Below are positions 37,039 to 54,933 of a stretch of DNA of 64,000 nucleotides, in pieces; the first letter of the stretch is position 1, and every line of letters starts with the position of its first letter. The position numbers and the translations under genes were made by a program. The DNA is from a virus. The stretch spans positions 28,951 to 92,950 of IMG/VR virus record IMGVR_UViG_3300025647_000020; one strand, given 5' to 3'. The notes beneath the pieces were generated by a model, which was not told the DNA's origin, searched no databases, and saw only the letters and a program-made list of their open reading frames with translations.

Positions 37039-37764
37039 ATGAAAAAATGGAATTTAGAGGAAACAAATAAATTAAAACTATATATAGCTCAAAGAATGAG
37101 CTATGAAGAAATTTGTTTAAAAATGAATAGGACTTTTAGTTCGGTTGGTAATAAAGCTAGAAAATTAAATTTAACATATAATCCTAAAAAAAGAATTTAT
37201 CGAAGTTTATACATTTGTCAAAATACAAAATGTGTAAAAACATTTGAAGGATACGTTATAGCTAACCCGAAATATTGTAGTAGTTCATGTGCTGCCCAAG
37301 TAAACAATTTAAATGTTCAAAGAAATAAACAAAAAAAAATAGATTTACCTCCAAAAATAAATAAACAAAAAATAATAACACATAGTTTTTGTTTATACTG
37401 TAAGGCTGCTAAACATAATATCTATTCAACTTACTGTAGTGTAACATGCTCTAGTGAACATAAGAGAGACATTAAGATTGGATTATGGTTAAATGGAAAG
37501 CACAGTGGACATAAAGGAAAAACTTTACAATTATGTGGTTTTGTAAAATATCATCTGAGAAAAATCAGAGGCACAAAGTGCTGTCAATGCGGGTGGGATA
37601 AAAAACACCCTATAGATGGAGCTACATGTAACCATATAGATCACATTGACGGTGATGCATCTAACAATAAAATAGAAAATTTGAGAATATTATGTCCCAA
37701 CTGTCATTCATTAACAGCAAACTTTGGTTCACGTAACAAAAATTCTGCTAGAAATTTTAATTAA
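37039..37764 (+). CDS. HNH homing-type endonuclease with N-terminal helix-turn-helix and zinc fingers
   Basis: 241 residues. The N-terminus (WNLEETNKLKLYIAQ, then YEEICLKMNRTFSSVGNKA) is a helix-turn-helix of the kind used for DNA recognition. Two zinc-finger-like Cys clusters follow (YCSSSC, FCLYC plus YCSVTC), then the HNH core CNHIDHIDGDASNN with LRILCPNCHS. A typical free-standing homing endonuclease, sitting next to the tRNA cluster where such elements often reside and possibly responsible for spread of the tRNA region. Confidence 0.8.
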   Translation: MKKWNLEETNKLKLYIAQRMSYEEICLKMNRTFSSVGNKARKLNLTYNPKKRIYRSLYICQNTKCVKTFEGYVIANPKYCSSSCAAQVNNLNVQRNKQKKIDLPPKINKQKIITHSFCLYCKAAKHNIYSTYCSVTCSSEHKRDIKIGLWLNGKHSGHKGKTLQLCGFVKYHLRKIRGTKCCQCGWDKKHPIDGATCNHIDHIDGDASNNKIENLRILCPNCHSLTANFGSRNKNSARNFN

Positions 37765-38175: not shown

Positions 38176-38180
38176 AAATT

Positions 38181-38304
38181 CTCCGGTGGCTTAGTTGGTT
38201 AAAGCATCCCACTTTCCTGTCCATTTATTAAGACTAATCCGTTTTAGTTTTTTAAAGGCCAAGATTAATGGGAGGATCGTGGGTTCGAGTCCCACCCGGA
38301 GAAC
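38181..38304 (+). tRNA. tRNA-Glu (TTC) interrupted by a 50-nt insert in the anticodon loop
   Basis: Acceptor TCTCCGG/CCGGAGA and T arm GTGGG-TTCGAGT-CCCAC are perfect, with D stem GCTT/AAGC. The anticodon stem TCCCA/TGGGA and a normal loop CT-TTC-AA form only if 38217-38266 is removed, that is between positions 36 and 37. The 50-nt insert is U-rich and much shorter than any group I intron. An intact tRNA-Glu(TTC) exists at 52618. Confidence 0.65.
38217..38266 (+). other. Putative 50-nt tRNA intron
   Basis: Insert between nucleotides 36 and 37 of the tRNA-Glu. CCATT (38221-38225) can pair with AATGG across the 3' junction (38267-38271), and AATC with GATT, giving a bulged stem around the splice sites. 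Boundaries can shift by one or two bases. Confidence 0.45.
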
Positions 38305-38317
38305 ATAAAAGCTAAAT

Positions 38318-39238
38318 ATGTCAAGAAACGTACAACATTCTTTATTGGGAAAAGCTAAGGCTAATAAAAAAGATGAATTTTATACACAATTTAAAGACAT
38401 AGAGGGTGAATTAAAACATTATGAACATCATTTTAAAGATAAAATAGTTTATTGTAATTGTGACGATCCTAATGTTAGTAATTTTTCAAAATATTTTATT
38501 TTAAACTTTGAAAGATTAAAACTAAGAAAATTAATTTCTACTGGGTATAAGAAAGAAGGTAGAGGAGTTGGAAATCTTTATAAAAAAGATCAAAATAAAA
38601 TTATTCGTCTAGAAGGTAATGGAGATTTTAGAAGTGAAGAATGTATTGAATTGTTAAAAGAATCAGATATTGTAGTTACTAATCCTCCATTTTCTTTGTT
38701 TCGTGAATATGTAGGACAATTAATAGAATACAAAAAAAATTTTCTCATTATTGGCAATATAAATGCTCTTACCTATAAAGACATTTTTAAGCTTATTAAA
38801 AATAATAACGCTTGGATGGGTATTAACATGGGAAGAGGAATCTCAGGGTTTATCGTTCCAGAACATTATGAGCTTTATGGGACAGAGACTAAAATAGACG
38901 ATGAAGGAAATAGAATAGTCTCACCTAATAATTGTTTTTGGTTGACAAACTTAGATACATCTAAACGACACGAAGACATCGTTCTTTCAAAAACATATTA
39001 TGGATGTGAAAGTGAATATCCAATATATAATAATTATGATGGTATCAATGTAAATAAAACAAAAGATATACCAAGGGATTACAGGGGAGCTATGGGTGTA
39101 CCAATAACATTTCTGCATAAATTTAATCCAGATCAATTTGAAATAATTAAATTTAGAAAGGGAAATGATGAAAAAGATTTATCAATAAATGGCAAATGCC
39201 CATACTTTAGAATTTTAATTAAAAATAAAAGATTATAA
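38318..39238 (+). CDS. Adenine-specific DNA methyltransferase, EcoRI-methylase-like
   Basis: 306 residues. N-terminus NKKDEFYTQFKDIEGEL is typical of the EcoRI-type adenine methylase family; VYCNCDDPNVSNF marks the SAM-binding region and VVTNPPFSLF the catalytic N-P-P-F. WLTNLD and CPYFRILIKNKR near the end also fit the family. Probably protects phage DNA, or modifies host DNA, as an orphan methylase; no cognate nuclease is adjacent. Begins 14 nt after the split tRNA. Confidence 0.8.
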   Translation: MSRNVQHSLLGKAKANKKDEFYTQFKDIEGELKHYEHHFKDKIVYCNCDDPNVSNFSKYFILNFERLKLRKLISTGYKKEGRGVGNLYKKDQNKIIRLEGNGDFRSEECIELLKESDIVVTNPPFSLFREYVGQLIEYKKNFLIIGNINALTYKDIFKLIKNNNAWMGINMGRGISGFIVPEHYELYGTETKIDDEGNRIVSPNNCFWLTNLDTSKRHEDIVLSKTYYGCESEYPIYNNYDGINVNKTKDIPRDYRGAMGVPITFLHKFNPDQFEIIKFRKGNDEKDLSINGKCPYFRILIKNKRL

Positions 39239-39295: not shown

Positions 39296-39369
39296 ACCCC
39301 TATAACTCAGTTGGTTAGAGTATCGTACTTTTAATGCGAGAGTCCTTGGTTCGAGTCCAAGTAGGGGTA
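39296..39369 (+). tRNA. tRNA-Lys (TTT)
   Basis: Acceptor ACCCCTA/TAGGGGT, anticodon arm TCGTA-CTTTTAA-TGCGA, T arm CTTGG-TTCGAGT-CCAAG. Complete. Confidence 0.88.
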
Positions 39370-39383
39370 CAAATTTTATTAAA

Positions 39384-39473
39384 GGGGGTGTAGCTGATGT
39401 GGTTTTAGCGGGAGACTGTTAATCTCTGATTGAAAATATTGAAATAAAGTGGGTTCGAATCCTACCGCCCCCG
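39384..39473 (+). tRNA. tRNA-Asn (GTT) with enlarged variable region
   Basis: Acceptor GGGGGTG/CGCCCCC, D stem GCTG/TAGC, anticodon arm GGAGA-CTGTTAA-TCTCT, T arm GTGGG-TTCGAAT-CCTAC. Between anticodon and T stems lie 21 AT-rich nt instead of the usual 5 and without a stem. Confidence 0.7.
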
Positions 39474-39484
39474 CTTTTATTTAT

Positions 39485-53898: not shown

Positions 53899-54933
53899 AT
53901 GACTAACAATAAAATAAATTATTTTACACCTTTGGTTGATATTGAGCAAAATGCTTTAGATTAAATAAACAATCTTGCATTAGATGAAAATATCAATCAA
54001 ATAGCTGTTTTCTCTGATATACATTATTGTGACGAGAAAGCTATTCCAGTTGGATTAGCATTTTCTACTAACGCTCACATTTATCCTTTAATTACGGGTA
54101 AAGATGTTGGGTGTGGGGTAGCTTATATGAAAATTCCAAAGCAATATGTTTTAAAAACTTTTGATAAAGACAAACATTATAATGCATTTCATAACGCTCA
54201 TTTAAAAATGACTGATGAAGGCTTAGGTGGAGGTAATCATTTTTTATCTTTAGAAGAAGAGAAAGATAATCTTTATATTATCGTTCATACCGGAACCAGA
54301 AACAGAGGGATTTACATGTATCAAAAACATTATGCTATGTTGAATGGTAGTAATTCTATCTCTGTTAATGAAATAGATGAAAAACATCCAGAGTAGTATG
54401 ATGAATATAATGATGTTCTATTCTATGGTGTTAATCGAAGAAAGCAATTTCTTTACAGTACTTTAGATTTTTTGATTAGGAATCATTATGTAGAAGACGA
54501 CGATTATTATACAAATGACAGTATTCACAATCACATCAAAAAGGAAGGGGATTATTGGATTCATCGAAAAGGAAGCACAGAACTTAATAATGACATTATT
54601 GTTGTGCCGTTATCAATGACCAGAGGAAGTCTTTTGGTTAAATCGACCTATGATGCTGGAAACTTAAATTCGTGCTCTCACGGGGCTGGCAGAGCTTTGA
54701 GTAGAACTAAAACTCTTAAATATTGGTATGCGTCTTTAAAGAAAAAAGAACGTCGCCAATATGAATTAGATTTTCCTGAGTTATTGGGAAGGGATGGTAA
54801 ATTCAGCAAAGGTTATATTCAAGAGTTTGATTTTGCTTATAAGAATACAACAGAATTAATGAAAGAACAATATTTTTTAAATCCTGTAACTCAAACAACT
54901 CCTATTTGTACCATTAAATTTTCTGAATTATAA
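53899..54933 (+). CDS. rtcB: RtcB RNA ligase with two in-frame stops (TAA, TAG)
   Basis: Read from ATG 53899 with stops at 53962-53964 (TAA, codon 22) and 54394-54396 (TAG, codon 166), the frame gives a 344-residue RtcB, shorter than the about 400 of bacterial forms. Catalytic landmarks survive: KDVGCGVAYM (metal Asp/Cys), GLGGGNHFLSL (His), IVHTGTRNRG (His), HNHIKKEG, CSHGAGRALSRTK (guanylylated His) and IKFSEL at the end. RtcB joins 2',3'-cyclic phosphate and 5'-OH RNA ends, repairing or splicing tRNAs. ALD-stop-INNLA aligns with Q in E. coli RtcB as I recall it (RQQLINTA). Confidence 0.72.

Follow-up and report, generated by a model that had tools for sequence, protein, structure and literature searches.

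A probable short intron in a phage tRNA-Lys(UUU) gene, a variant of a class of anticodon-loop inserts in phage and bacterial tRNAs

An interrupted tRNA gene and its surroundings

The analyzed window, 64,000 nt taken from a virus record of 92,950 bp, contains a tRNA gene with 50 extra nucleotides inside the anticodon loop (Table 1). The identical interrupted gene is present in a fuller, 132,834-bp IMG/VR record of the same phage, the capsid protein of which resembles T4-type major head proteins. The Rfam alignment of this gene skips the insert bases within the anticodon loop, and ARAGORN detects the gene solely when introns are allowed, with a different placement of the insert. Removal of the 50 nt yields a complete cloverleaf with perfect pairing in the acceptor (7 bp), the anticodon stem (5 bp), and the T stem (5 bp). 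The central claim of an earlier note on this DNA, namely, that a tRNA carries a 50-nt anticodon-loop insert, is borne out, with the start of the gene corrected from 38181 to 38180. Given that the interrupted tRNA ranks 6th best among the 15 Rfam tRNA matches, its exons are not decayed.

Table 1 Features of the interrupted tRNA gene and of other loci in the window
Feature	Position	Strand	Basis or detail
HNH endonuclease-like ORF	37039–37764	+	Weak Pfam matches
Interrupted tRNA gene	38180–38303	+	Rfam RF00005, 56.5 bits
tRNA-Lys(UUU) 5′ exon	38180–38215	+	Rfam, ARAGORN, match to tRNA-Lys
5′ exon, acceptor 5′ strand	38180–38186	+	
5′ exon, D arm	38189–38205	+	
5′ exon, anticodon stem	38207–38211	+	
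5′ exon, loop CUUU (32–35)		+	
50-nt insert (taken as intron), 35/36 junction	38216–38265	+	38215–38264 equivalent (repeated T)
Hairpin in insert	38230–38251	+	AAGACUAA / UUAGUUUU, loop UCCGUU
tRNA-Lys(UUU) 3′ exon	38266–38303	+	Rfam, match to tRNA-Lys
3′ exon, loop U36 A37 A38	38266–38268	+	
3′ exon, anticodon stem	38269–38273	+	
3′ exon, variable loop	38274–38278	+	
3′ exon, T arm	38279–38295	+	
3′ exon, acceptor	38296–38302	+	
3′ exon, A73	38303	+	
Adenine methyltransferase gene	38318–39238	+	EcoRI-type relative
Intact tRNA-Lys(UUU), closest in sequence to joined exons in window	39296–39370	+	Similarity
tRNA-Asn	39384–39474	+	Expanded variable region
RtcB-like open frame, 322 codons	53965–54930	+	In-frame TAG at 54394

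Three junctions are possible for the insert: those at 34|35 and 35|36 produce the loop CUUUUAA, that is, tRNA-Lys(UUU), and the one at 36|37 produces CUUUCAA, that is, tRNA-Glu. The earlier note had chosen the last of these, with the insert at 38217–38266. When the exons joined with the Lys loop were compared with phage records, the annotated full-length or near full-length matches, from many phages, were mostly tRNA-Lys, the exception being Cellulophaga tRNA-Ile, and within the window, the best match to the joined exons is tRNA-Lys(UUU) at 39296, with low similarity to tRNA-Glu. Because of these matches, we take the gene to be a tRNA-Lys(UUU) gene with the intron at either of the two equivalent positions in Table 1, and the Glu identity was rejected. 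The uninterrupted relatives identified by the joined-exon search are distant tRNA-Lys only.

The HNH endonuclease-like ORF, which precedes the interrupted tRNA by about 400 bp, could encode a free-standing homing endonuclease. At the DNA level, the methyltransferase gene directly 3′ of the tRNA is 70% identical to one from a Helicobacter phage. The variable region of the tRNA-Asn is about 18 nt longer than usual.

Folding of the window insert together with the loop gives z = −2.3, and tests for tRNA-like architecture detected no 7-nt T-loop, 7-bp P1, or NCCA tail in this insert. The same phage encodes a second insert-bearing tRNA, identified with Rfam outside the window (114 nt; 114821–114934 of the fuller record, minus strand). 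This is a weaker case: the joined form without the insert of about 40 nt would leave an odd 8-nt loop, and the fold of the insert is not significant (z = −0.02). Searches for relatives of the window locus via the methyltransferase and capsid genes yielded near-identical copies only, and BLAST comparison of the insert-bearing tRNAs of the window and two others with phage records produced no full-length match.

Short inserts in phage and bacterial tRNAs

Viral contigs were scanned for tRNA arms separated by 30–60 extra bases, and the candidates were examined for perfect pairing in the anticodon stem and acceptor; tandem tRNAs and tRNA-like elements that lack a regular anticodon arm, which are not introns, were set aside. 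The scans yielded about 60 distinct insert-bearing tRNAs, mostly from phages, with intact exons and with inserts of 33–71 nt (median, 47 nt) that all lie at sites from 34|35 to 36|37. The window tRNA conforms to this class, with an anticodon-loop insert in the range of 30–100 nt, intact exons, and insertion at 34|35, 35|36, or 36|37. Given the second insert-bearing tRNA in the same phage and the dozens of phages with an insert at the same site, the window insert is beyond chance. The interrupted tRNAs mostly decode ANN codons, being those for Asn, Lys, Ile, Met, Thr, and Arg, with the proviso that the scan patterns favor some D-arm types. This preference is strong, not absolute: given the exceptions, one Val(UAC) (L472) and one bacterial Leu(UAA), the rule that inserts occur only in tRNAs with U36 was dropped.

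Most of the inserts fold into an acceptor/T-arm minihelix: the helix P1 leads through a linker to a hairpin whose T-loop has 7 nt, and the second strand of P1 comes either immediately after this hairpin or a few bases later. This fold was found in 43 of the 61 inserts, compared to 0.37 expected from shuffled inserts. Under a stricter test that required tRNA geometry (P1 of 7 bp, T stem of 5 bp, no spacer, and at most one mismatch in each), 26 of 63 inserts qualified, compared to a rate of 0.05% among shuffles; in 10 of the 26, N-CCA is located exactly at the position of a tRNA 3′ end. An example is the insert L156 (GTTAAGC-acgggtatt-CGTGG(TTCAACT)CCACG-GCTTAGC-ACCA). The covariation score for 33 aligned inserts with their exons was 0.816, compared to 0.185 when shuffled and at most 0.19 when slid, but because these inserts were preselected for the fold and the exon stems were included in the score, the minihelix shuffle test is the fairer statement.

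Neither the window insert nor its sister shows the arrangement that defines the tRNA-like (type I) subclass, namely, a P1 helix adjoining a T-arm hairpin whose T-loop has 7 nt. Plain hairpin-like inserts without the minihelix comprise a minority of the other phage inserts as well (for example, L147, L152, L410, and L373). Given that the window insert is such a plain hairpin, its removal is less certain, although the site, the size, and the integrity of the exons are common to the class.

In four loci, L126, L234, L435, and L047, the model R1 detects another match, full-length or long, close to the first interrupted tRNA; the one in L126 is a known Lys insert-bearing tRNA, whereas the other three may be additional interrupted tRNAs. 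Ten phage loci (L036, L040, L068, L091, L097, L112, L113, L439, L441, and L470) contain tRNA-like elements that have a D arm and a T arm but, in place of the anticodon arm, 45–65 nt with the recurring motifs GAGCACGTA... and ACAGCAAT. These elements are not introns and possibly represent a separate family of tRNA-like RNAs.

Among the matches listed in a scan of bacterial and archaeal genomes, we found, along with archaeal introns of the known kind, at least three phage-kind inserts in one Armatimonadetes assembly. In this Armatimonadota genome, G073, four tRNA genes are interrupted, those for Lys(UUU), Arg(UCU), Ile2(CAU), and Leu(UAA). The tRNA set of this fragmented MAG showed no uninterrupted copies of these four; the two insert-bearing contigs that we read also encode typical chromosomal functions, among them tpiA and methionine sulfoxide reductase. 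A covariance model applied to 291 genomes of the phylum revealed interrupted tRNAs in one more genome only, G081, in which the insert is located on an 866-kb contig and the interrupted Lys gene adjoins nadB and pyk. In G081, a sister species, Lys(UUU) and Ile2(CAU) are interrupted, but no insert is present in Arg(UCU) or Leu(UAA); the exons of the latter two are nearly identical to those in G073, and the empty sites are clean at 35|36 (Arg) and 34|35 (Leu). This genome has an additional, divergent Lys(UUU) gene. Between the interrupted Lys genes of G073 and G081, the exons differ in 1 of 72 positions and the introns in 15 of about 58; conserved exons combined with a drifting insert are the expected outcome of selection on the joined tRNA. 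Both genomes also contain dense arrays of divergent tRNA genes that are partly orthologous (contig C181 of G073, locus L574, and C1:962500–964600 of G081, locus L606).

The cultured Agrobacterium phage Atu_ph07 carries interrupted genes for tRNA-Asn, unannotated and with an insert of 46 nt, and for tRNA-Lys, at about 68.16–68.28 kb and with an insert of 48 nt. According to the Atu_ph07 paper, the tRNAs of this phage represent every amino acid but Asn and Thr. The joined tRNA-Asn is 92.8% identical, over 69 nt, to the uninterrupted tRNA-Asn of Agrobacterium phages OLIVR5/6.

As an observation, phage tRNA introns are already known from a single earlier report on Lak phages, in which Devoto et al. 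2019 (PMC6784885) described introns in Lak phage tRNAs, termed them enigmatic, noted that one possibly encodes a tRNA itself, and found that the introns are missing from some variants. Reading the Lak-A1 sequence by eye, we found the same acceptor/T-arm minihelix in one Asn intron and in one other intron, and a whole nested tRNA in the Thr intron. The Lak introns and the class described here thus both reside in phage tRNA genes, and those of Lak-A1 contain this minihelix or a nested tRNA; however, the Lak introns that we read are longer and include an extra 5′ segment, whereas the window insert is shorter and has no tRNA-like domain. A shared architecture, bacterial cases, and an enzyme partner are not given for Lak in PMC6784885, and no account of such an architecture, of bacterial cases, or of a mechanism was found in the literature searched, which excluded preprints and most subscription journals.

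Alternative explanations and candidate enzymes

The rival explanation that survives best, although we consider it unlikely, is that the window gene is an insertion mutant or a dying tRNA gene, with 50 nonfunctional nucleotides and with intact phage tRNA-Lys genes doing its job. The window indeed has two other predicted tRNA-Lys(UUU) genes, the insert lacks the conserved tRNA-like fold, and the loop of the second insert-bearing tRNA of the phage is irregular. However, the exons show perfect pairing and rank with the better-scoring tRNAs of the window, a random insertion would reach the 34–37 interval in only a few per cent of cases, and inserts of the same size recur at the same site, both across dozens of phages and among the housekeeping tRNAs of bacteria. 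This recurrence of site and length disfavors the insertion mutant that the earlier note had offered as one possibility.

The likeness to short, protein-spliced introns rather than to group I introns, suggested in that note, is a fair one. Group I introns, for example, that in the cyanobacterial tRNA-Leu(UAA), are located in the anticodon loop as well, and the short insert of the G073 tRNA-Leu(UAA) lies at 34|35. The group I core, however, encompasses roughly 100 nt and about 10 helices are needed (PMC4033280), compared to the 33–71 nt of the class inserts. A group I intron was rejected for the window insert, which at 50 nt is too short and shows no Rfam match to a catalytic core or to any intron.

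The archaeal and eukaryotic tRNA introns, for their part, share with the class a short length, a location in the anticodon loop, and the requirement for an endonuclease and a ligase. We nevertheless find it highly improbable that the window insert is an intron of this type, with a bulge-helix-bulge, a splicing endonuclease, and sealing by RtcB, even though the phage has an RtcB-like gene. The canonical site of these introns is 37|38, with processing by way of the bulge-helix-bulge or TSEN, whereas the sites here are 34|35 to 36|37; the folding around the splice sites called for in the earlier note revealed no bulge-helix-bulge; and the splicing endonuclease domain PF01974 is absent from 20 insert-bearing records (phage-encoded genes only). 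RtcB, which had been proposed as the joining enzyme, was detected in 2 of 30 insert-bearing records, both of the window phage and of no other phage tested, and was accordingly rejected as the class-wide partner; in the window, its frame contains the in-frame TAG. The product of this frame is a possible ligase, not a class-wide one. Conserved motifs are present on both sides of the single TAG, which could reflect read-through, recoding, or recent loss.

Thus, RtcB and the archaeal-type endonuclease do not track the inserts, but ATP-dependent RNA ligases do. A ligase of the PF09414 family is encoded in 19 of 21 insert-bearing records of at least 119 kb (one of the 19 below the family cut-off, with a clear Rnl1-type match) compared to 9 of 23 comparable controls (p = 0.0005), a comparison that ignores kinship and in which the controls may themselves carry inserts, ligases being common in large phages. 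Rnl1-type ligases are present in several insert-bearing records, and the window phage encodes a PF09414 ligase at 97316–97882 of the fuller record.

The frequent presence of RNA ligases in insert-bearing phages could also be taken to favor retention of the insert during infection, such that it protects the tRNA, for example, as a decoy for host anticodon nucleases or as a reserve processed on need. Known anticodon-nuclease targets include tRNA-Lys, and most inserts occur in tRNAs for ANN codons. We regard this role as very unlikely, given that G073 shows no uninterrupted copy of the four decoding tRNAs, which fits constitutive removal better, and that the pattern of the first scan favored some tRNA types. 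Least probable of all is a minimal ribozyme that catalyzes its own removal: the RNA architecture is conserved although the loci do not all have a conserved protein partner, but this architecture is that of a tRNA rather than of any known ribozyme, the window insert matches no Rfam ribozyme or intron family, and 40–50 nt is far below the size of known self-splicing introns.

Proposed removal of the insert

Short introns in the anticodon loops of phage tRNAs and, rarely, of tRNAs in bacterial chromosomes are a widespread, little-studied class, as indicated by the constant site, the intact exons, the recurrence, the empty sites in sister bacteria, and the minihelix in most members. From the sequence comparisons, the window gene probably contains a genuine short tRNA-Lys(UUU) intron, a variant type of this class, that would be removed by cutting and RNA ligation. 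The notion of a spliced phage tRNA put forward in the earlier note therefore stands as the best reading of the sequence, stripped of the Glu identity, the bulge-helix-bulge, and the RtcB partner.

Under this scheme, an endonuclease would recognize the tRNA-like or hairpin shape of the insert and cut the transcript at both ends of the insert, leaving 3′-OH and 5′-phosphate ends; an ATP-dependent RNA ligase of the Rnl1 or Rnl2 type, common in large insert-bearing phages including the window phage, would then seal the anticodon loop. The cutting step is the least certain for the window insert, a hairpin variant without a tRNA-like domain. RNase P and tRNase Z process tRNA-like RNAs, including acceptor/T-arm minihelix substrates and mascRNA, and leave the 3′-OH and 5′-phosphate ends that Rnl-type ligases join. 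Because the insert element resembles the end of a tRNA, these enzymes are the natural candidates for the cutting. The class shares with their tRNA-like substrates the 7-bp acceptor, the 5-bp T arm, the T-loop, and sometimes NCCA, but, unlike these substrates, the class minihelix sits inside another tRNA, and its cleavage is putative.

More tentatively, and with less probability than the intron itself, the inserts could point to a distinct form of tRNA splicing in bacteria and phages, in which the intron is a nested mini-tRNA that is cut out by the tRNA end-processing enzymes, after which a ligase joins the exons. An acceptor stem, a T arm, and sometimes CCA would be placed in the anticodon loop, with RNase P acting at the 5′ end of the intron and tRNase Z or a similar enzyme at the 3′ end; the hairpin introns of the window phage would then be reduced relatives.

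According to a 2014 review (PMC4033280), introns in bacterial tRNAs are exclusively of the self-splicing type, group I (or group II). If true, the splicing proposed here would be a route absent from that account, operating in phages and in bacterial housekeeping tRNAs; it would assign a constitutive role to RNA ligases and would explain missing tRNAs in phage annotations, such as the tRNA-Asn of Atu_ph07.
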